From contig JASEGY010000058.1 in the NCBI GenBank assembly GCA_030019105.1, forward strand, positions 1-12,580: a stretch of DNA of 12,580 bases. Direction: 5' to 3'. Below the pieces are notes generated by a model, which was not told the DNA's origin, ran no database searches, and was given only the letters and a program-made list of their open reading frames with translations. The stretch's first letter is position 1; each line of letters starts with the position of its first letter. The translations under genes and the position numbers were made by a program. Shown piece after piece: positions 777 through 11,827 of the stretch. The stretch comes from a bacterium. Lineage in GTDB: Bacteria > UBA9089 > JASEGY01.

Positions 777-812
777 AGGAGTTAGTAATGCTAAGAGAAT
801 CAAGTATCGGTA

Positions 813-994
813 CTCACCCGTTAGTACTTTGATTTAGAGAAAAGCACCTAATCAGTGGGAATAGCTACTCCTTTTAATAGCACACGGATGACACGGATTT
901 AACGGATTTATACTGATTTTATCTGTGGTAATCCGTAGTATCCGTGTTATCCGTGTGCTATTAGATTTTCATAATCAAAGTAGTAGCGGATGAG
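813..994. repeat. Outer inverted repeat enclosing the 87-bp element (copy A)
   Basis: Arms at 813-835 and 972-994 are inverted relative to each other at 19 of 23 positions (left arm begins CTCACCCGTTAGTACTTTG). They bracket the 87-bp palindromic element at 876-962. Bases 814-852 recur in direct orientation at 12526-12564 with two mismatches over 39 bases. The whole block lies in the 837-bp gap between the beta-barrel gene and the first OmpA lipoprotein gene, where I see no credible coding sequence. Confidence 0.75.
876..962. repeat. 87-bp palindromic intergenic element, copy A
   Basis: The ends are inverted (AATAGCACACGGAT at the left, ATCCGTGTGCTATT at the right) and the interior carries repeated CACGGATT/AATCCGTG words. 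It could form a long imperfect hairpin. Copy B at 6207-6293 has the same length and differs at about four of 87 positions. There is no coding capacity; it resembles a MITE or REP-type element. Confidence 0.9.
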
Positions 995-1010
995 CACCTG
1001 ATATATAATT

Positions 1011-1147
1011 CTCTCAGAAAAAGGCTCTATGCCCTCACCGCTTCGCGGTGATTAATCTGGGGGTGAAGATAAAAACAGCCCGCTTTCGTCCCTTGTGAAA
1101 AAGGGATCGAATTTATCCGAGAGGCTTCCGGAACATAAGGGAGGTGA
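1011..1147 (+). other. Degenerate copy of the OmpA leader fold-back
   Basis: This stretch holds imperfect outer arms (CTCTCAGAAAAA at 1011-1022 and TTTATCCGAGAG at 1112-1123, 10 of 12 pairable), an internal hairpin TCACCGC-TTC-GCGGTGA and a second hairpin CCCTT-GTGAAA-AAGGG just before the right arm. GAGGCTTC and then AAGGGAGGTG follow. The layout and several words match 1447-1546, which directly precedes the OmpA lipoprotein gene. Here the ribosome-binding-like site leads only to TTG GAA ATT TAG, so no gene follows. It may be the leader left from a lost OmpA paralogue or a duplicated regulatory RNA. Confidence 0.4.
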
Positions 1148-1220
1148 TGCTTATTGGAAATTTAGAATTTAAGAGGTTAGGATTTTGGAAACAAATAATT
1201 TACCCGCTGTGCGGTTAGCT

Positions 1221-1371
1221 TTAGCCCCAGCGGGGCGATATGTTTATAGCCATCTGCAACCTCACGGATCAAGCCCCGTAGGAGCGGCATATTGATAACA
1301 TACCGCTCCTACGGAGCTGGGCTAATTTTATTTGAATCAGGTCTATAAACATTCCGCCCCGCTGGGGCTAA
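1221..1371. repeat. Nested palindrome with 29-bp outer arms
   Basis: Outer arms at 1221-1249 and 1343-1371 pair at 27 of 29 positions (left arm TTAGCCCCAGCGGGGC onward to TGTTTATAG). Inside lies a separate perfect 12-bp hairpin, CCGTAGGAGCGG at 1276-1287 with CCGCTCCTACGG at 1303-1314. It is non-coding and resembles widely dispersed GC-rich palindromic repeats of environmental genomes. Confidence 0.85.
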
Positions 1372-1446
1372 TCCTGTTCCAAAAGCAAAGAGCACAGGCG
1401 GCAAAATTTTGGGTATATTATTTTTTTCCAGGTCCCTTAAGGCAGG

Positions 1447-1546
1447 CTCCCGGATAAAACTGTTGCGAAGCAGCGAATGAATCCCTGGTAGGAAGAGGGT
1501 CGAGTTTATCCGGGAGGCTTCAAAACAAAACAAAATAAGGGAGGTA
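1447..1546 (+). promoter_or_regulatory. Structured leader upstream of the first OmpA lipoprotein gene
   Basis: A fold-back with perfect 12-bp arms (CTCCCGGATAAA at 1447-1458 and TTTATCCGGGAG at 1505-1516) encloses a GTTGC-GAA-GCAGC hairpin and a CCCT...AGGG hairpin next to the right arm. GAGGCTTC and the ribosome binding site GGGAGGT (1539-1545) follow, with the ATG at 1553. The arrangement is echoed at 1011-1147. It could be a structured 5' UTR or simply another palindromic repeat. I could not match it to a known riboswitch class. Confidence 0.45.
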
Positions 1547-1552
1547 GAAGAA

Positions 1553-2320
1553 ATGAAGATGGGACAAATTAAATCTCAGGTATTTTTTGCGCTGGCGCTG
1601 GTTGTGTTTCTTTTCCTGAGCAGCGGCTGTGTGGTCAGCAAAAAACAGTTACAGAAGGAAGGAGTAAATTCAAAAGATTTACAGATTCAGGAGTTGCAGG
1701 CCCGAATAGCAGAGCTTTCTAAGGGAGAAAAAACCAAAAAGATAAGTGAGTTGGATGGAGAAAAATTAGAAAGAGAAGCAAAAATAAAGTCCCTGGAAGA
1801 GAGTCTGGCTGAGATTGAAAAAAGCGGCCGGGAGGCACAAGAAGCGGTTGACAAATTAAAAGCGGAAAATGCTAAGATTACCAAAGATCTGGCTAATTTT
1901 GAGGTGAGTGTTAAAGAAGAAAAGGGAAAGCTTAGTATTACCATGCTGGATGAGATTCTTTTTGATTCGGGAAAAGCAAAAATAAAGAAAGAGGCCATGC
2001 CTGTTCTTGATAAGTTAGCCGGGATTTTAAAAGAATATAGTGAGCGGGAAGTTGTCATTGAAGGACATACCGACAATGTGCCTATTTCCACCACTCTTTT
2101 TCCTTCCAACTGGGAGCTTTCCGCCCGGCGAGCGACAAATGTCCTTCAATATTTCGTTGTGCAGCAGAAAATTTTTCCCAAGAGATTCTCTGCCACCGGA
2201 TATGGTGAATACAAACCTGTCGCCGATAATTCTACGGTAGAAGGACGGGCTAAGAATCGCCGGGTAGAAGTTATTCTTTTGCCCCCGGATATTGTTTGGA
2301 AAAAAGAGAAATTTCAATGA
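1553..2320 (+). CDS. OmpA-family peptidoglycan-binding lipoprotein, short paralogue
   Basis: A 255-residue lipoprotein. Residues 1-26 form a lipoprotein signal peptide ending LFLSSGC, with C26 the predicted lipidated cysteine. Residues about 33-118 are a charged, heptad-rich coiled coil. Residues about 125-247 are an OmpA C-terminal domain that binds diaminopimelate peptidoglycan: ILFDSGKAKI, EGHTDNVP, NWELSARRA, RFSATGYGEYKPV and NRRVEV are all visible. The NWELSARRA form is the MotB/OmpA type. It probably links the outer membrane to peptidoglycan. The start is supported by GGGAGGT 7 bases upstream. The next gene is a longer paralogue, and this copy is about 46 residues shorter in the coiled coil. 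No MotA or flagellar neighbour is present, so a stator role is unlikely. Confidence 0.9.
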   Translation: MKMGQIKSQVFFALALVVFLFLSSGCVVSKKQLQKEGVNSKDLQIQELQARIAELSKGEKTKKISELDGEKLEREAKIKSLEESLAEIEKSGREAQEAVDKLKAENAKITKDLANFEVSVKEEKGKLSITMLDEILFDSGKAKIKKEAMPVLDKLAGILKEYSEREVVIEGHTDNVPISTTLFPSNWELSARRATNVLQYFVVQQKIFPKRFSATGYGEYKPVADNSTVEGRAKNRRVEVILLPPDIVWKKEKFQ

Positions 2321-2342
2321 GAAAATAAGTAAGGTATGGCTA

Positions 2343-2392
2343 TGTAGTTGCAGAGCTTGCTCAGACTATGTCGAGCAAGCTCGACCACTACA
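2343..2392. repeat. Hairpin between the two OmpA lipoprotein genes
   Basis: GAGCTTGCTC at 2353-2362 pairs with GAGCAAGCTC at 2373-2382, and TGTAGT at 2343-2348 pairs with ACTACA at 2387-2392, with an unpaired 4-base stretch on each side. It has no T-run. It lies 22 bases after the first stop codon and may trim or stabilise the transcript end, or be another dispersed palindrome. Confidence 0.7.
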
Positions 2393-2419
2393 AACATATT
2401 ATACGAGGAGGTAGAAGAA

Positions 2420-3325
2420 ATGAAGATGGGACAAATTAAATCTCAGGTATTTTTTGCGCTGGCGCTGGTTGTGGTTCTTTTCCTGAGCAGCGGCTGTGTG
2501 GTCAGCAAAAAACAGATGCTGAAGGAAGTAAATTCAAGAGATTTGCAGATTCACGAGTTGCGTACCCGAATAGCAGATCTTTCTGAGGAACTTTATGAAG
2601 CGACCTCTAAACTTAAAAGGCTGACAGAAAAAGAGAGAGAACTTGAGAAGCTCCTTAAAGAAAAAACAGAATGGCAAGAAGCAAAAGAAGGTCTTATGAA
2701 AGAGATGGGCCTCTTAAAAGAAGAAAAGAATAATTTAGAAAAAAGGATAAGTGAGTTAGAGAACCAAATATCAGGAAAAGAAGCAAAAATAAAGTCACTG
2801 GAAGAAAACCTGGCTAAGATTGAAAAAAGTGGCCGGGAGGCACAAGAAGCGGTTGATAAATTAAAAGCGGAAAATGATAAAATTGCTAAAGATCTGGCTG
2901 ATTTTCAGGTGAGCGTTAAAGAAGAAAAGGGAAAGCTTACTATTACTATGTTGGATAAGATTCTCTTTGATTCAGGAAAAGCAGATATAAAGAAAGAGGC
3001 TCTACCTACTCTTGATAAATTAGCTAAGATTTTAAAAGAACACAGTGATCGAGAAGTTCTCATTGAAGGACATACTGACACTGTGCCTATTTCCACCCCA
3101 CTTTTCCCTTCTAACTGGGAGCTTTCTACTCGTCGGGCAACAACTGTTCTTCAATATTTCGTCCGGGATCAGAAAATCTCTCCAAAAAGATTTTCTGCCG
3201 CTGGATATGGCGAGTACAAACCTGTAACCACTAATTCTACGGTAGAAGGGCGGTCTAACAATCGCCGGGTAGAAATTATTCTTTTGCCTCCCAATCTTGT
3301 TTGGGAAAAAGAGAAATTTCAGTGA
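2420..3325 (+). CDS. OmpA-family peptidoglycan-binding lipoprotein, long paralogue
   Basis: A 301-residue lipoprotein with the same plan as its upstream neighbour: lipobox LSSGC with C26, a longer coiled-coil stalk (residues about 33-165, dense in E, K, L and R heptads), then an OmpA C-terminal domain with ILFDSGKADI, EGHTDTVP, NWELSTRRA, RFSAAGYGEYKPV and NRRVEI. I chose the ATG at 2420 because GAGGAGGTAG lies just upstream and the signal peptide begins there; an in-frame extension to 2348 would run through a hairpin. The ribosome binding site and the first 90-odd coding bases are almost identical to the first copy (one difference through the lipobox), whereas the stalk and OmpA domain have diverged. 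This points to tandem duplication with later exchange at the 5' end. Role inferred: outer membrane to cell wall tether with a longer reach. Confidence 0.9.
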   Translation: MKMGQIKSQVFFALALVVVLFLSSGCVVSKKQMLKEVNSRDLQIHELRTRIADLSEELYEATSKLKRLTEKERELEKLLKEKTEWQEAKEGLMKEMGLLKEEKNNLEKRISELENQISGKEAKIKSLEENLAKIEKSGREAQEAVDKLKAENDKIAKDLADFQVSVKEEKGKLTITMLDKILFDSGKADIKKEALPTLDKLAKILKEHSDREVLIEGHTDTVPISTPLFPSNWELSTRRATTVLQYFVRDQKISPKRFSAAGYGEYKPVTTNSTVEGRSNNRRVEIILLPPNLVWEKEKFQ

Positions 3326-3364
3326 GAATATTGGCATAAGTTCCTCGCCGGTTACAGACATTTG

Positions 3365-3397
3365 ACCTTCCCGAAAGCTTCGAGCTTTCGGGAAGGT
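3365..3397. terminator. Strong hairpin after the OmpA pair, possible terminator
   Basis: A perfect 15-bp stem (left arm ACCTTCCCGAAAGCT, loop TCG, mirrored right arm) begins 40 bases after the stop codon of the second OmpA gene and 58 bases before the lpoB-like start. No T-run follows, so factor-independent termination is doubtful. It may instead separate mRNA segments or be a dispersed palindrome. Confidence 0.45.
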
Positions 3398-3454
3398 GTG
3401 CGATTGGCCCAAACGATGAACAAAGCCCAATAATTTAAGGAGGAGGATTAAAAG

Positions 3455-4036
3455 ATGAAAAAGTTAATTTGTTTGTCGATTTTAATGATGTTCTTTGTCC
3501 TTAATTGCGCCGCCCGTCAAGTCCAGAGAATAGACGAAGGACAACAGGTCGATTTAAGCGGCCGATGGAATGATACGGATTCCAAATTAGTTGCCCAGGA
3601 AATGATTAAAGATGGTCTGGCTCGAAACTGGCTTACGGACTTTATTCAAGAGAACGGCAAGAAGCCGGCTGTAATTGTCGGAATTATCAAAAACAAAACC
3701 CATGAATTGATCAGCACGGAAACATTTATTAAAGATATCGAAAGAGAATTTATCAATTCCGGTAAAGTAAAAGTTGTTCAAGCCGGGGATGAACGGAAAA
3801 AGCTGAGAGACGAAAGAGCCGATCAGCAGGAATACGCTTCATCTGAAACGGCTAAACAGTGGGGAAAAGAAAAAGGCGCGGATTTCATGCTCCAGGGTGC
3901 TGTCAATTCCATTGTTGATACTATCCGTAATAAAAAGGTCGTGTTCTACCAGGTAGACATGGAATTAAGCCATATTGAATCCAATGAAAAGGTCTGGCTT
4001 GGCACCAAAAAAATAAAGAAATTTATTAAAAACTAA
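3455..4036 (+). CDS. lpoB: LpoB-like penicillin-binding protein activator lipoprotein
   Basis: The 193-residue product has a short lipoprotein signal (MKKLICLSILMMFFVLNC, lipidation at C18) followed by the hallmark start of the LpoB family, VDLSGRWNDTDSKLVAQEMI. A small alpha/beta domain follows with PAVIVGIIKNKTHELIST, then FIKDIEREFINSGKVKVV and KGADFMLQGAVNSIVDT, ending in a strand with YQVDMELSHIESNEKVW. In enterobacteria LpoB reaches from the outer membrane through peptidoglycan to stimulate PBP1B; here the partner is unknown. The ribosome binding site AAGGAGGAGG lies close upstream. The lipobox has Asn at -1, unlike the usual Gly/Ala/Ser, so processing may differ. A COG3014-like lipoprotein follows, supporting the family call. 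The symbol reflects family, not proven orthology. Confidence 0.85.
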   Translation: MKKLICLSILMMFFVLNCAARQVQRIDEGQQVDLSGRWNDTDSKLVAQEMIKDGLARNWLTDFIQENGKKPAVIVGIIKNKTHELISTETFIKDIEREFINSGKVKVVQAGDERKKLRDERADQQEYASSETAKQWGKEKGADFMLQGAVNSIVDTIRNKKVVFYQVDMELSHIESNEKVWLGTKKIKKFIKN

Positions 4037-4062
4037 ATAGAGTGTGACTAAAATAAAACATG

Positions 4063-4326
4063 TCCACAGATTTCACAGATTATCACCGATTATTTAAATG
4101 CACACCGCTTATCCTAAGCTATAGCTTTTAAGATAATGTTTTTGGGGTAAGCGAATTTAAGACAGGCTATTTAACTTTTGGAGTTAATCCTTTAGGATTT
4201 CATTAGTTATGAAAGGCTAAAGCCTAAACTCCAATTGATATCCAACCCCAAAATCTTTTTCTTAAATACTATATTTGTATCTAAGCTGTTTTATTATTTA
4301 TTTATGAAATCTGTGTAATCTGTGGA
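4063..4326. repeat. Repeat-filled gap bracketed by CACAGATT inverted arms
   Basis: Arms at 4063-4081 (TCCACAGATTTCACAGATT) and 4308-4326 pair at 18 of 19 positions. Between them lie the inverted copy of the window's first repeat (4105-4170) and another imperfect hairpin (4180-4232, GGAGTT...CCTTTAG with CTAAAG...AACTCC). This 316-bp gap between the lpoB-like and TPR lipoprotein genes shows no coding sequence. The same CACAGATT word recurs at 8069-8087 after the acetate kinase gene. Confidence 0.8.
4105..4170. repeat. Intergenic repeat, copy 2 (inverted relative to 2-71)
   Basis: The reverse complement of this block reads like 2-71: it starts ATAGCCTGTCTTAAATTCGC, continues through TTACCCCAAAA and AGCTATAGC and ends in GGATAAGCGG. 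The two copies lie about 4.1 kb apart in opposite orientation and together enclose the beta-barrel, OmpA and lpoB-like genes. Confidence 0.8.
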
Positions 4327-4352
4327 TTAGATATAGGGAGTCAACATCATCC

Positions 4353-5783
4353 ATGTTCTATCCCGAGAGGAATTCTTTTGTTAAATTTGGGATCATTGCT
4401 CTTTCATTATTTGCCGTCGGCTGCGCCACATATTATCAAAAAAATATCAAGTTTCAGGAAAATTTCATAAAAGGTGATTTTGATCAAGCCGCCAGGGCGC
4501 TGGATAAAAATAAAGGCGCGGCCAAAGGCAATAATAGATTGCTTTATTTCCTGCAAAAAGGGGTTGTCTTACAACTGCAGGGCAATTTTGAAGAAAGTAA
4601 TCGATATTTGGAAGATGCCTACTTGTTCACCGAAGATATTCAGAAGAATTATGCCAGAGAAGCATTCAGCCTCCTGTCAAATCCGATGGTCGTTCCTTAC
4701 AAAGGAGAAGATTTTGAGTCGGTGTTGATTCATTATTATAAGGCATTGAATTATTTGGGTCTAAATCAATATGAAGAGGCGCTGGTTGAATGCAGAAGAA
4801 TTAATATCAAATTAAATCAAATAAATGATAAATACGAGAAGCGGAAGAACCGGTATAAAAGAGATGCCTTTGCCTATAACCTGATGGGCATTATTTTTGA
4901 GGCGGCAAAAGATTACAACAATGCCTTCATTTCGTATCGCAACGCCTATGAAACATATCAACAGGATTATAAGCCGTTTTTCGAGGTGGAGACGCCGTCG
5001 CAACTCAAAAGGGATTTGCTTAAGACCGCTTATTTAAATGGATTTACAGAGGAATTGGCCCAATATGAAAAAATCTTCGGCATGAAATATACTCATCAAA
5101 AAAATGAAGGCGGTGAGTTGATTTTCTTCTGGAATAATGGACTCGGACCGGTCAAAGATGAGTGGAGCATCAGTTTTTTTATTCTAAAAGGCAAAGGCAG
5201 ATTAGTAACATTTGTTAATGAGGAATATGGGTTCTCATTTCCTTTTATGCTCGACAGTGGTTCTGATAACTCTGTAACCTTGACTGATTTGAAATTCGTG
5301 AGAGTCGCCTTTCCAAAATACCGGGAGAGGAAACCTTATTATCGAAACGCCGGGATCACCGCTTCCAATAAAGAATATCCTTTAGAATTAGCCCAGAACA
5401 TCAATGAAATTGCCTTTAAAACGCTCGAAGACCGAATGATAAGAGAATTAGCAAATTCATTGCTTCGTCTGGCATTCAAACAGGCTGCGGAAAAAGCAGT
5501 CAGTAAAAAAGTCGAGAATTTAGGCGCTTTGCTTTCGATAGCGAATGCACTCTCTGAGAAAACCGATACACGGAATTGGCAGACTCTTCCTTATAGTATC
5601 TCTTATGCCAGAATACCATTGCCGTCCGGAGAAAACACCGTGGAATTCAAAAGCCTTTCGCCGGTAACTCAAGCTTCCAGCTTGAGAGCTTCCAATGCAA
5701 TCAGTTTTAAGTTTAATATCAATAAAGGCGAAACAATATTTCGCATGTTTCATACGCTGGATAGTATCCCGCTTGAACAGTAG
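4353..5783 (+). CDS. COG3014-like TPR lipoprotein
   Basis: The 476-residue product begins with a lipoprotein signal (LSLFAVGC, C24). Residues about 30-245 are helical with TPR-like units, clearest in DFDQAARALDKNKG, GNFEESNRYLEDAYLF, YYKALNYLGLNQYEEALVEC and YNLMGIIFEAAKDYNNAFIS. The C-terminal half (about 255-476) is mixed alpha/beta and includes EGGELIFFWNNGLGPVKDEW, a pattern I associate with the COG3014 family, known mainly as a conserved lipoprotein of unknown function. In several Gram-negatives such genes sit by lpoB, as here, suggesting a shared role in outer-membrane control of cell-wall synthesis (inference). The ATG at 4353 is the only in-frame start that keeps the signal peptide; AGGGAG at 4335-4340 is a weak, distant ribosome binding site. 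Function is not established. Confidence 0.75.
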   Translation: MFYPERNSFVKFGIIALSLFAVGCATYYQKNIKFQENFIKGDFDQAARALDKNKGAAKGNNRLLYFLQKGVVLQLQGNFEESNRYLEDAYLFTEDIQKNYAREAFSLLSNPMVVPYKGEDFESVLIHYYKALNYLGLNQYEEALVECRRINIKLNQINDKYEKRKNRYKRDAFAYNLMGIIFEAAKDYNNAFISYRNAYETYQQDYKPFFEVETPSQLKRDLLKTAYLNGFTEELAQYEKIFGMKYTHQKNEGGELIFFWNNGLGPVKDEWSISFFILKGKGRLVTFVNEEYGFSFPFMLDSGSDNSVTLTDLKFVRVAFPKYRERKPYYRNAGITASNKEYPLELAQNINEIAFKTLEDRMIRELANSLLRLAFKQAAEKAVSKKVENLGALLSIANALSEKTDTRNWQTLPYSISYARIPLPSGENTVEFKSLSPVTQASSLRASNAISFKFNINKGETIFRMFHTLDSIPLEQ

Positions 5784-5821
5784 GAAGCGAAGGGGCGATG
5801 AACAAGGCCGGATAGTATCCT

Positions 5822-5898
5822 CTCAATATTTCGGGGCGCTTGTGGGTAAGAACTGGGTTTCTTGAAGAAACCTGGTTTCTGCGCCCCAAGTTATTGAG
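5822..5898. repeat. Nested palindrome with GGTTTCTTGAAGAAACC core
   Basis: Outer arms CTCAATATTTCGGGGCGC (5822-5839) and its near-complement at 5881-5898 (15 of 18) enclose an inner palindrome around GGTTTCTTGAAGAAACC (5848-5880). The same inner word forms the cleaner palindrome at 6772-6804. It is non-coding. Confidence 0.8.
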
Positions 5899-5928
5899 AA
5901 AATAGGGACGGTTCATAATCTACAATTT

Positions 5929-6080
5929 GTAACCGTTCAGGTAGGTAGTGTAAATAAGGAAAAAGGGGAAAGAGGGGGAAATGGAAAAGGAAGAAAGAAC
6001 CTTGTTTCCCTTTGAACCCCTATTTTGCTCTTAATTTCCCAACTTTCCCCTTTTCCCTTCATTACACCCTGAACGGTTAC
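5929..6080. repeat. Inverted repeat with purine/pyrimidine arms
   Basis: GTAACCGTTCAGG at 5929-5941 is perfectly inverted as CCTGAACGGTTAC at 6068-6080. Just inside, GTGTAA followed by an A/G-rich tract (about 5948-5972) is complementary to a C/T-rich tract ending TTACAC (about 6043-6067). The arms could form a long hairpin or, because they are purine on one strand, a triplex-prone tract. I see no coding sequence in 5784-6138. Confidence 0.8.
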
Positions 6081-6138
6081 TACAATTTTAGTGTGAAAAC
6101 TTGCGACCTGTGCAATCGACATCTACCAACAATTTAAT

Positions 6139-6334
6139 CACCACGGAGACACAGAGACACGGAGGAAAATCAGGAAATAAGTCCAAAGGTGTAGATACTC
6201 TTATTTAATAGCACACGGATGACACGGATTTAACGGATTTTCACTGATTTTATCTGTGTTAATCCGTAGTATCCGTGTTATCCGTGTTCTATTCTTCTAA
6301 AATTATTTCTCCGTGCCTCCGTGTCTCCGTGGTG
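6139..6334. repeat. Outer inverted repeat enclosing the 87-bp element (copy B)
   Basis: The left arm, starting CACCACGGAGACACAGAGAC at 6139, and the right arm, ending CTCCGTGTCTCCGTGGTG at 6334, pair over about 30 bases with a few mismatches. They bracket the 87-bp element at 6207-6293. These outer arms are unrelated to those around copy A at 813-994. Confidence 0.85.
6207..6293. repeat. 87-bp palindromic intergenic element, copy B
   Basis: Same length and orientation as the element at 876-962, with about four differences in 87 bases. It carries the same AATAGCACACGGATGACACG left end and the same inverted right end. Its right end lies 116 bases upstream of the Rpn-like fragment. Confidence 0.9.
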
Positions 6335-6409
6335 AATTTCTGTTTGCACAGGTCGAGATATTTCAGCAAGGAATTCTTGCTTAAGTTCTTTCGAGAGGAG
6401 GTGGAACTA

Positions 6410-8087: not shown

Positions 8088-8157
8088 CGAGTTGTGCAAT
8101 CAAGTAATGGTAATGGGACGCAGATTTTCGCAGATTCACAGGATAAATCTTATATCT

Positions 8158-8257
8158 GGTTCCCACGCTCTGCGTGGGAACCCCCATTCAGGACGCTCTG
8201 CGTCATAAATATGTGACACAGAGCGTCACAGTCAGCATCCCCACGCAGAGCGTGGGG
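8158..8257. repeat. Cluster of three ACGCTCTGCGT palindromes
   Basis: Three hairpins follow each other: GGTTCCCACGC-TCT-GCGTGGGAACC (8158-8182), GACGCTCTGCGTC (8192-8204) with its near-complement at 8215-8227, and CCCCACGC-AGA-GCGTGGGG (8239-8257). The first and third are also exact 15-bp inverted copies of each other (CCACGCTCTGCGTGG), so the cluster could fold as one cruciform. It lies between the acetate kinase and phosphoketolase genes. Confidence 0.9.
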
Positions 8258-8286
8258 ACGAGGGGTGCATTTTGCCGGTAATTTTT

Positions 8287-8407: not shown

Positions 8408-10789
8408 ATGACCGAGATACTTTCTAAAGAAGAGCTGGAAGGCATAGACGCCTACTGGCGGGCAGCAAACTATCTTTCTGTCGGACAGATCTATCTCTAT
8501 GACAACCCCCTGCTGAAAGAGCCCCTCAAGCTGGAACACATCAAGCCGAGGCTGCTGGGGCATTGGGGGACTACGCCGGGATTGAATTTCATCTATGTTC
8601 ACCTTAACCGGCTGATCAAGGCTTATGATCTTAACATGATTTATGTCACCGGCCCCGGTCACGGGGGGCCAGGACTGGTCGCAAATGTCTATTTAGAAGG
8701 AACATACAGTGAGGTTTATCCCCATATTTCACAGGATGCCGGGGGAATGAAGAAGCTGTTTAAACAGTTCTCCTTCCCGGGTGGGATTTCCAGCCATGTT
8801 GGCCCTGAAACACCCGGGTCTATCCACGAAGGCGGGGAGCTTGGCTACTCCCTCTTTCATGCCTACGGAGCGGCCTTCGATAATCCCGACCTTATTGTTG
8901 CCTGCGTGGTGGGTGACGGTGAAGCCGAAACAGGACCGTTAGCCACGGCCTGGCATTCGAACAAGTTTCTCAATCCGATCCGCGACGGGGCCGTGCTGCC
9001 CATTCTGCACCTGAACGGCTACAAGATTGCCAATCCGACCGTACTGGCCCGGATAAGCCATGAAGAGCTCGAGAATCTGTTTATCGGATACGGCTACAAG
9101 CCCTATTTTGTTGAAGGCTCTGAGCCTTTCGCCATGCACCGGTTAATGGCTTCAACCCTTGAGACGGTTATCAATGAAATCAGGGCTATCCAGGCGGAGG
9201 CCCGCGCTAACGGCCTGGCCAAACGTCCCCAATGGCCGGTGATTATCCTGCGGACCCCCAAGGGCTGGACAGGGCCGAAAGAGGTTGATGGATTGAAAAC
9301 AGAAGGTTCCTGGCGGTCACACCAGGTTCCCTTTGCGGACATGGCCGGGAATCCTGATCATATAACATTGCTCGAAGAATGGATGAAGAGTTATAAGCCC
9401 GAAAAGCTCTTTGATGAAAGCGGGAAGTTAATTCCGGAGCTGGCCGAACTCGCCCCTAAAGGTGAACGCCGGATGGGGGCGAATCCCCATGCGAACGGGG
9501 GTGTTCTGCTAAAAAATCTGAAGATGCCCGACTTCAGGGACTACGCTGTTGAAGTCCCGTTCCCCGGCCAGGTCTTTTGTGAAGCCAGCCGTGTGCTGGG
9601 ATATTTTTTACGGGATGTGATGAAGCTGAATATGGAGAGGCGGAATTTCAGGGTATTCGGACCGGATGAAACGGCCTCCAACCGCCTCGGCGCCCTGTTT
9701 GAGGTCACCGACCGGGCATGGATGGCCGGGACACTTCCTGAAGACGATCATCTTTCTCCTGATGGCCGGGTCATGGAAATCCTCAGTGAGCATACCTGCC
9801 AGGGCTGGCTGGAAGGATACCTCCTCACCGGCCGGCACGGGTTATTCTCCTCCTATGAGGCCTTTATCCACATTGTTGGCTCGATGTTTAACCAGCACGC
9901 CAAATGGCTTAAAGTAGCCAAAGAGATTCCCTGGCGCCGGCCCGTGGCCTCTCTCAACTACTTCCTGGCCTCCCATGTCTGGCGGCAGGATCACAACGGC
10001 TTCAGCCACCAGGATCCCGGCTTTATCGACCATGTCGTCAACAAGAAGGCCGGTATTATCCGGGTCTATCTGCCGCCTGATGCCAACACCCTCCTCTTTG
10101 TGGGCGATAAAGTCTTGCGAAGCCGCGACTCGATCAATGTTATCGTCGCCGGGAAACATCCGCAGCAGCAGTGGTTAGACATGGATGCGGCCATCAAGCA
10201 CTGCACCGCCGGCATCGGTATCTGGGAATGGGCGAGCAATGACAGAGGCACCGAGCCTGATGTCGTCATGGCCTGCGCCGGTGATGTCCCCACCCTGGAA
10301 ATCCTGGCTGCCGTTGACCTGCTGCGCCGGCAGGTGCCAATGCTTCGGATCCGGGTAATCAATGTGGTTGACCTGATGACGCTTCAGCCAAAGGAAGAGC
10401 ATCCCCACGGGCTGCCGGATAAAGATTTTGATACTCTTTTCACCACTGACAAGCCGATTATCTTTGCTTACCACGGCTATCCCTGGCTGATCCATCGCCT
10501 GACCTACCGCCGGACAAATCACAAGAATCTTCATGTGCGGGGATACAAGGAAGAGGGGACAACTTCAACGCCTTTTGATATGGCTGTCCGCAATGATCTT
10601 GACCGGTTCCATTTGGTGGCGGATGTCATTGACCGGGTGCCCAAGCTTGGATATATGGCGGCTTATGCCAAACAGTTTATCCGGGATAAACTCATTGAGC
10701 ACAAGGAGTATATCGCCAGGTACGGCCAGGATATGCCGGAGATCCGTGATTGGACATGGAAGCAGCAGGATTCATCTGAGACAGGGTAG
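8408..10789 (+). CDS. xfp: Xylulose-5-phosphate/fructose-6-phosphate phosphoketolase
   Basis: A thiamine-diphosphate enzyme of 793 residues, the normal family length. It cleaves xylulose 5-phosphate (and usually fructose 6-phosphate) with phosphate to acetyl phosphate plus glyceraldehyde 3-phosphate (or erythrose 4-phosphate). Visible signatures: [13 protein letters not shown] (H52), GPGHGGPG (82-89), the cofactor motif GDGEAETGP (169-177) through HLNGYKI (201-207), [10 protein letters not shown] (417-426), [13 protein letters not shown] with E469 in the expected glutamate position, and [14 protein letters not shown] (525-538). The ATG at 8408 has AAAGGAGGAG 7 bases upstream. Its GC content is higher than that of the envelope genes. 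The acetate kinase gene upstream completes a shunt giving acetate and ATP. The last 36 codons, stop codon and following bases recur at 11708-11827, beyond the BRO-N gene. Confidence 0.97.
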
Positions 10790-10801
10790 TGTCAAATAAA
10801 A
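10682..10801 (+). repeat. Direct repeat left copy: 3' end of xfp
   Basis: This 120-bp segment includes the last 36 codons of xfp, its stop codon and 12 bases beyond. It aligns without gaps to 11708-11827 with about ten substitutions. The last 33 bases (10769-10801, beginning GATTCATCTGAGACAGGG) are identical in both copies, and similarity ends abruptly after them. The identical core resembles an attachment-site duplication at a gene 3' end. Confidence 0.9.
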
Positions 10802-10878: not shown

Positions 10879-11706
10879 ATGGATAATAAAATTGCAATAT
10901 TTAAAGGCAAAAAGATCAGGAGAATCATTTATGCTAATGAATGGTGGTTTTCGGTGGTTGATGTAATTGAAGCTCTTACCGATAGCATTAATCCTCGCGA
11001 TTATTGGTATAAAATGAAGACTAGGGTCAAAGAAGAAGACGGATTTGAACTGTCGACAATTTGTCGACAGTTGAAACTTGAAGCTCCGGACGGAAAAATG
11101 CGTGAAACTGATTGCGCCAATACAGAGGGGATTTTCCGCATTATTCAATCAATTCCTTCGCCAAAAGCAGAGCCTTTCAAGCGCTGGCTGGCAAAAGTCG
11201 GCTATGAAAGAGTGCAGGAAATAGAGAATCCTGAATTGGCAACTAACCGGACAAGAATGCTTTATAAACTCAAAGGTTATTCCGATGATTGGATTGAAAA
11301 AAGAATGCGGGGGATTGCTATTCGTGAAGAGTTGACTGATGAGTGGCAGCAAAGAGGGGCAAAAGAACAAAGGGACTATGAGATTTTAACCGCGGAAATC
11401 TCTAAAGCCAGTTTTGGCATCACGCCAAGCGAGTATAAAAAATTGAAGGGGTTGGAAAGACAAAACTTGCGGGATCACATGAACGACCTGGAATTAATTT
11501 TTACTATGTTGGGAGAACGGGCAACAACTGAAATTCACAGAACAGAAGATTCAAAGGGCGTAGCCAAACTACAAAAAGACGCAAAAGCCGGTGGAGATAT
11601 TGCCGGAGGCGCCAGAAGGCAACTCGAAAAAAGATTGAAAAAATCAATTGTCTCCGATGAAAATTATTTAGAGAACCCAGAAAGCCAAAAGCGGTTAAAA
11701 GGATAA
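10879..11706 (+). CDS. BRO-N domain antirepressor-like protein
   Basis: A 275-residue product. Residues about 1-110 match the BRO-N domain, a DNA-binding domain common in phage antirepressors and viral BRO proteins: FKGKKIRRIIYANEWWFSVV, DVIEALTDSINPRDYW, LSTICRQLKLEAPDGK, RETDCANTEGIFRIIQSIP and PFKRWLAKVGYERVQEIENP. Residues 115-275 are charged and helical (YSDDWIEKRMRGIAIREEL, ITPSEYKKLKGLERQNLRDH, then a GGDIAGGARRQLEK tail), as in bacterial antirepressor or DinD-like relatives. The ATG follows GGAGG (10867-10871) by 7 bases. The gene lies between two copies of the xfp 3' end and has lower GC than xfp, consistent with acquisition as a cassette. A palindrome at 11048-11072 falls in its BRO-N coding region. 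The target is unknown; no other phage gene is present. Confidence 0.85.
   Translation: MDNKIAIFKGKKIRRIIYANEWWFSVVDVIEALTDSINPRDYWYKMKTRVKEEDGFELSTICRQLKLEAPDGKMRETDCANTEGIFRIIQSIPSPKAEPFKRWLAKVGYERVQEIENPELATNRTRMLYKLKGYSDDWIEKRMRGIAIREELTDEWQQRGAKEQRDYEILTAEISKASFGITPSEYKKLKGLERQNLRDHMNDLELIFTMLGERATTEIHRTEDSKGVAKLQKDAKAGGDIAGGARRQLEKRLKKSIVSDENYLENPESQKRLKG
11048..11072. promoter_or_regulatory. Perfect 25-bp palindrome inside the BRO-N gene
   Basis: Arms AACTGTCGACAA and TTGTCGACAGTT are perfect 12-bp complements around one T, and each arm contains the self-complementary octamer TGTCGACA. It encodes the LSTICRQL stretch of the BRO-N domain. It could be an operator bound by the protein itself, or a result of codon choice on a conserved motif. 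The regulatory role is inferred. Confidence 0.4.
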
Positions 11707-11707
11707 T

Positions 11708-11827
11708 CGGGATAAGCTTATCGAGTACAAGGAGTATATCGTCAGGCACGGCCAGGATATGCCGGAGATTCGTGATTGGACATGGAAACGGCCGGATTCA
11801 TCTGAGACAGGGTAGTGTCAAATAAAA
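11708..11827 (+). pseudogene. Duplicated 3' end of xfp (right copy)
   Basis: The xfp frame is preserved: it reads RDKLIEYKEYIVRHGQDMPE, then IRDWTWKRPDSSETG and a stop. Compared with the intact gene there are five amino-acid changes in 35 and five silent changes. No start codon or upstream phosphoketolase body exists here, so it is not a functional gene. It is either the displaced original end of xfp after cassette insertion or the last piece of a second, diverged xfp. The 33-bp identical core is at 11795-11827. Confidence 0.85.

Follow-up and report, generated by a model that had tools for sequence, protein, structure and literature searches.

Two copies of an 87-bp palindrome, here called X, lie within two different larger palindromes in a 12,580-nt stretch of bacterial DNA (GenBank contig JASEGY010000058.1, lineage UBA9089). 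This stretch, hereafter the window, corresponds to contig C597 in a draft genome of 4.34 Mb. The nested palindromes look like the remains of small mobile elements that carried a DNA-cutting gene between mirrored arms, and such remains may be the origin of a class of repeats that is widespread but has lacked an explanation. Our preferred reading, to which we assign a probability of roughly 70%, is that X and the outer palindrome of one of the two composites (B) belong to a single superfamily, wherein a gene of the GxxExxY family sits between arms of iterated words. B would be a relic of such an element, X most likely is another, and B and the second composite (A) would have multiplied in the genome.

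Nested palindromes in the window

Element A (positions 809-998, plus strand, 190 bp) is bounded by a terminal inverted repeat (GGTACTCACCCGTTAGTACTTTGATT / AATCAAAGTAGTAGCGGATGAGCACC) and holds X copy 1 at its centre (876-962, plus strand); its left end has 34 matches in the genome. Element B (6104-6355, minus strand) has CGACCTGTGCAA ends and arms of CACGGAG words, and holds X copy 2 (6207-6293, plus strand) where a gene would be. The extents of both composites were taken from the window sequence together with the genome copies, and the two X copies from a repeat search, the genome copies and pairwise comparison. X is a palindrome of iterated ACACGGAT words. The repeat search of the window pairs the arms of copy 1 (875-917 and 921-963) at 81% complementarity, and places both copies within a 90-bp direct repeat (96%).

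The outer arms of B (6138-6167, with iterated CACGGAG words, and 6306-6335, both on the plus strand) form a 90% inverted repeat, and the outer inverted repeats around the two X copies differ in sequence. Alignment of the outer arms scores 16.0 in A and 22.5 in B, above the 13.5 at which randomly paired window pieces (up to 2000 pairs) peak; the nesting is therefore real and beyond chance. An earlier note on this DNA had described two 87-bp copies with about four differences inside different outer palindromes, and this description is borne out, with exactly four mismatches between the copies.

GxxExxY genes lie between mirrored arms

The flanks of genomic stretches carrying the arm motif of X suggested genes of the GxxExxY family (TIGR04256 / PF13366) as candidate partners. 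This family comprises PD-(D/E)XK nucleases, Cas4/RecB-like. Four of four proteins scored from such loci lie above both curated cut-offs (TIGR04256 and PF13366), the window itself holding gene ends only. The proteins carry the PD-(D/E)XK fold and conserved active-site residues; when solved structures were searched by sequence, a single weak match came up (E 0.37). Family matches, many of them fragments, number 68 and 59 in two genomes of the phylum (61 instead of 68 when fewer candidates are scored) and four in the window's own genome.

For each gene we determined the best inverted repeat between the 200 bp upstream and the 200 bp downstream, with a threshold score of 12. This threshold is reached by 67 of 80 GxxExxY loci, namely 44 of 52 in relatives and 23 of 28 in other genomes, the latter having been picked for carrying the X-arm motif. 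The relatives sample comprises 52 of the 53 matches of at least 92 bits (G013:C344 was left out), weaker and often fragmentary matches being excluded; in the other genomes, two of 30 loci were dropped for flanks of less than 80 bases. Among the controls, one of 29 PF01909 genes (from 30 loci) and two of 32 control open reading frames (ORFs) reach the threshold, both of these ORFs coming from loci that hold such repeats. At a score of at least 18 the counts are 36 of 52 and 15 of 28 for GxxExxY, and none of 29 for PF01909. The arms consist of about three or four iterated words; among loci with a score of at least 15, the spacing that fits best is 8-10 nt (39 of 41 and 19 of 19). GxxExxY-like domains also occur within ORFs of 455-629 amino acids (G009:C310, G011:C140, G015:C248, G014:C85, and G012:C152 and C23), and three of these contigs have two such domains near one another.

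A second gene family follows the same plan. Genes for four-helix-bundle proteins (TIGR02436, the S23p family) are bracketed by arms in 25 of 30 loci from relatives and in 24 of 29 from other genomes (30 loci with one dropped for short flanks; 49 of 59 overall), with best lags mostly of 7, 8 or 14 nt. By their flanks, these elements are a putative parallel class. The shared plan would also fit a view in which the palindromes act mainly as RNA, as stem-loops processed by RNase III like those of 23S ribosomal RNA (rRNA) intervening sequences, and spread passively. In the Coxiella intervening sequence, as the available part of PMC4990558 describes it, heptamers directly precede the start of S23p, whose ORF occupies the loop. 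We nevertheless consider this view quite improbable. The window has no Rfam match, which places its elements outside any rRNA gene and on which ground structured RNA was rejected as a candidate; moreover, a nuclease with conserved active-site residues would be left unexplained.

Arm words tend to follow the protein subfamily

The arm words include CGCAGAG, CACGGAG, CACAGAT, CGCAAAG, CACGAAT, CACAAAG and ACACGGAT. Outer and inner palindromes share one superfamily. When upstream arms only are compared, word and protein similarity correlate over 44 loci (Mantel r 0.75) and over the 25 loci of less than 80% identity (r 0.34), with none of 2000 permutations as high in either comparison. Mapped on the protein tree, the word label changes 21 times, against a shuffled mean of 44 and a minimum of 37 in 300 shuffles.

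On this tree, L183 from another phylum groups with three further B-like loci, L204, L177 and the own-genome L194 (98/97), GAG words being present outside this clade too. X-type arms were labelled by a pattern that flags nine loci; the four flagged on both sides (L193, L233, L319 and L173) all belong to one clade of six (96/85), which was chosen after the tree had been inspected. Its remaining members are L206 and L158, and the six come from the window's own phylum, Bacteroidota, Lentisphaerota and Caldilineaceae. In Flavobacterium and Caldilineaceae, a GxxExxY gene is found between X-type arms. In L319 and L173 the gene occupies the loop of X, and L233 has a whole X on either side. As first labelled, the X-type group requires four changes (shuffled mean 8.7, none of 500 as low); on re-reading, L206, L189, L231 and L335 do not have strict X arms, and L158 has one arm, its other side being masked.

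These correlations bear on the idea that GxxExxY genes and other palindromes enter the loops of pre-existing hairpins in the manner of homing elements, the arms being older and independent. What lies between B-type arms does vary within one genome, from almost nothing (L083) to X, an AT-rich stretch (L085) or a GxxExxY gene (L194), and the distance from upstream arm to gene ranges from 3 to 151 nt among loci scoring at least 12. However, arm similarity correlates with protein identity, and loci with the same word label tend to group on the protein tree; we regard this idea as unlikely.

Probable gene-less relics and a proposed order of nesting

Element B has its ends, arms and gene borders in common with the gene-bearing loci L204, L177 and L194. 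L204, from the relative G013, has the ends and arms of B but holds a GxxExxY gene where B has X. Aligned with these three loci, B in the window retains a gene start, ATAATTTTAGAAGAA (6292-6306, minus strand; the gene copy L194 of the own genome reads ATGATTTTAGAAGAA, with ATG as its start), and a stop end, TCCTGATTTTCCTCC (6161-6175, minus strand), that agrees with the one of the L177 gene. Just before B lies a second, gutted cassette of the L214 type (5929-6080, plus strand), with GTAACCGTTCAGG ends and arms of AAGGGGAAA words. Both of its ends align with the gene-bearing L214 of G013, and its retained gene start, ATGGAAAAGGAAGAAAG (5981-5997, plus strand), is identical to that of L214. On these remnants, B is a putative gene-less relic of a GxxExxY cassette, and X is most likely another. 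Because no gene remnant was found inside the X copies of the window, X is read as a relic on the strength of its arms.

The own-genome locus L194 (C208) is a case of nesting in progress: the gene that B-type arms enclose there contains a gene-less heptamer palindrome, flanked by a direct repeat of some 7 bp (by eye). The copy of B at C299 (L032/L077) may record how X came to sit in B, in that it has an extra 50 bp between the left arm of B and X. This region aligns with the left arm of A over 58 columns with a score of 20.5, where 500 shuffles peak at 11; in the ordinary B of the window, only the last 9 bp align in this way. The simplest reading would be the entry into B of an A-like element with X in it, whose right end was later lost, as was the left end in most copies. 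Recombination between copies of A and B would leave a trace similar to that at C299. Since the A-like arm in this copy runs into X, two separate landings of X are argued against.

Multiplication of A and B

The genome holds 40 copies of X of at least 70 nt (43 matches, with three fragments under 70 nt dropped). A accounts for 28 of these copies, 25 with both ends and three with the right end only; B accounts for nine, eight with both arms and one with the right arm only; and three copies (L028, L034 and L037) lie outside both, all counts of A and B being limited by draft contigs with gaps. The ends of A remain close to GGTGCTCACC/GGTGAGCACC throughout the genome. A target duplication of 8 bp (7 or 8 of 8 positions matching) flanks 16 of the 24 two-ended A copies with scorable ends, out of 25, and four of the eight two-armed copies of B, where mismatched flank pairs give 1.6% and 2.2%, respectively. 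The window copies of A and B each match at 5 of 8 positions and were not scored as duplications. Given these duplications, and with 37 of 40 X copies in two composites, A and B with X already fixed inside are mostly what multiplied. Outer and inner parts thus largely occur as fixed units, which the earlier note had named as an observation that would count against independent landings of X.

A is multicopy, with terminal inverted repeats and target duplications, as is a miniature inverted-repeat transposable element (MITE). One proposal would make A and B ordinary MITEs whose movement by transposases leaves 8-bp duplications, with the iterated arms as passengers and the GxxExxY gene as unrelated cargo. 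The duplication frequencies, set against a null of about 2%, agree with this proposal, and duplications are seen by eye outside the outermost ends of the gene-bearing loci L212, L215 and L210. Yet arms bracket the gene without outer ends in L319, L225, L184 and L177 (by eye), and the words correlate with protein phylogeny, which passenger sequence need not do. We judge this proposal to be somewhat unlikely, although it is the most serious of the competing explanations.

By eye, the A copy at C198 holds an insert with an 8-bp duplication and that at C100 one with a TA duplication. At L080 (C182), a ATTCCCGCGAAAGCGGGAAT palindrome is enclosed by B-type ends with an 8-bp duplication, CAATTTAT (by eye).

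The earlier note also suggested single-strand movement of X by a transposase associated with repetitive extragenic palindromes (REPs), such that X would be a REP-like palindrome moved by a Y1 (HUH) enzyme. X is indeed a multicopy palindrome, and the genome has one Y1 gene, with a 23-bp palindrome at its start. However, neither X nor a long inverted repeat surrounds this lone gene, on which ground the candidate was rejected, and arms such as those of X accompany a different nuclease; we consider a Y1 origin very improbable. The ends of X copies are, by eye, mostly TTTAATAG and CTATT, where the REP tag rule used for comparison, from the accessible part of its source, is GTAG or CGTC at one end.

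Distribution of X beyond the genome

X-like DNA was found in 14 of the 41 genomes searched (own, same phylum and others). Among named genomes, 49 stretches carry a 23-base motif of the X arm in which 22 bases are fixed; the genome labels include Bacteroidota, Chloroflexi, Armatimonadota, Nitrospinota, Lentisphaerae, Cloacimonadota, Ignavibacteria and Methanosarcinales, among others. Own-phylum relatives already searched are judged to account for no fewer than six of these stretches (L126, L132, L135, L149, L160 and L165); the 27 other genomes were our choice among the named genomes with the motif, and these six stretches are not among them. Viral contigs gave no exact match to the motif, for which reason viral carriage of X was rejected, and X gave no match in plasmids.

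Many X copies in the loci of relatives are free-standing (by eye), and some have further outer palindromes, as in L115 (same genus) and L111 (G017, with an 8-bp duplication by eye). The earlier proposal of a mobile palindrome that lands in the loops of other palindromes therefore stands in part: X is dispersed, and elements do land between other arms, as at C208 and in the two inserts within A. Separate landings of X in A and in B, in view of the C299 copy, are not supported. At L105/L124 (G007:C17), an array of X copies with repeated flanks adjoins a GxxExxY gene.

Proposed history and its weaknesses

According to our preferred reading, the arm word of a cassette would tend to match the subfamily of its protein, and nesting would arise when another element lands in the cargo gene. 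An A-like element with X would have inserted into the cargo gene of B, X thereby replacing the gene, and the ends of both gene and insert would have eroded. A and B, with X fixed inside, would then have multiplied with 8-bp target duplications, presumably through transposases. The nuclease may recognise and cleave its own arms or hairpins, and may thereby act in trans to move the cassette along with copies that lack the gene. A dispensable gene in the loop may be all that draws inserts there.

Several observations weigh against this reading. We infer cleavage and movement by the nuclease. Such target duplications as can be seen go with the outermost ends (A, B and GTAACCGTTCA) rather than with the iterated arms, and thus ordinary transposases could do all the moving; by eye, there is no duplication at the arm-only borders of L177, L184 and L225. 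Mismatched flank pairs of GxxExxY genes reach a score of 12 in 10-16% of cases, because the arm words are related, and the true bracketing rate may be lower than given above because of how the other genomes were chosen. Two rows of the tree, L173 and L158, were picked for an adjoining X arm. On plasmids, in a small sample retrieved with an X-type protein as query, three of eight GxxExxY genes reach the threshold and a fourth scores 11. The presence of X and of GxxExxY agrees in 34 of 41 genomes (12 with both, 22 with neither), an agreement confounded by relatedness; X occurs without the gene in two genomes (G002 and G005) and the gene without X in five. For just three of the 53 matches to the X arm is there a GxxExxY match no more than 400 bp away.

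A broader proposal, which we advance tentatively and at somewhat less than even odds, is that GxxExxY genes and their arms constitute an undescribed class of mobile elements in bacteria and archaea. The nuclease would recognise subfamily-specific words and move gene-less palindromes, S23p elements with words of 7-8 nt would form a parallel class, and rRNA intervening sequences would be a special case. Palindromes of this kind span genomes labelled with many phyla, plus archaea. A link to two poorly characterised gene families would give both the repeats and the genes a testable role, and each arm word is a direct prediction of what the corresponding nuclease should bind.

Other features of the window

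Further nested palindromes were noted elsewhere in the window. An outer palindrome of CACAGATT words (4059-4330, strand unassigned, arms by eye) holds another repeat element at about 4118-4260. Part of this inner element recurs inverted at 2-54 (repeat search), and a similar element is the insert with the TA duplication in the A copy at C100 (by eye). A nested pair at 1221-1371 has TTAGCCCCAGCGGGGC arms around a GTAGGAGCGGCATAT palindrome, and at 8156-8262 nested TTCCCACGCTCTGCGTGGGAA-type palindromes surround ACGCTCTGCGTC. A heptamer run at 101-133 (CAATCCG, CAATCTG, CATTCCG) is of the kind that elsewhere brackets four-helix-bundle genes.

Among the genes, a Bro-N gene is flanked by a 131-bp direct repeat (89%; 10671-10801 and 11697-11827) that includes the 3' end of a phosphoketolase gene, as if gene and duplication had arrived together. 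Two adjacent OmpA-domain genes (1540-2320 and 2407-3325) have start regions that are 97% identical over 122 nt.

Relation to known systems

Among open-licence papers, we found no explanation for these palindromes and none that links such repeats to GxxExxY or four-helix-bundle genes; a search with the literal sequences returned only papers irrelevant by title. GxxExxY is named in this literature by two papers, in both only in passing as far as the accessible portions go, and PF13366 by a third; the available part of PMC5524665 mentions four-helix-bundle genes only in phage tables.

Four known systems invite comparison. A resembles MITEs in its terminal inverted repeats, its many copies and its 8-bp target duplications, but its centre is a palindrome from another superfamily. 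In REP systems with their associated transposase (RAYT, or TnpA-REP), the nuclease gene is flanked by the same short dispersed palindrome. The likeness, as far as partial accounts of those systems go, lies in this tie between a short dispersed palindrome and the nuclease gene that it flanks. Unlike those systems, the nuclease here is of the PD-(D/E)XK rather than the HUH/Y1 type, the arms are iterated words spaced 8-10 nt apart, and the enclosed gene sits in the loop of the palindrome.

The Coxiella 23S rRNA intervening sequence, according to the accessible part of PMC4990558, likewise combines terminal inverted repeats with a short ORF in its loop; tandem heptamers adjoin the start of this ORF, three of them before the S23p start and fewer in some strains. 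That sequence is located in rRNA and encodes a four-helix-bundle protein, whereas the window elements, which lack an Rfam match, are putative GxxExxY relics. Finally, the heptamer repeats of Xanthomonas and Nostoc also form arrays, of which 70-75 occur as convergent inverted-repeat pairs in two Xanthomonas genomes (PMC4692102, in its available part). The inverted heptamer pairs of Xanthomonas are generally not found with mobile elements in that account, whereas here heptamer-type arms bracket four-helix-bundle genes.

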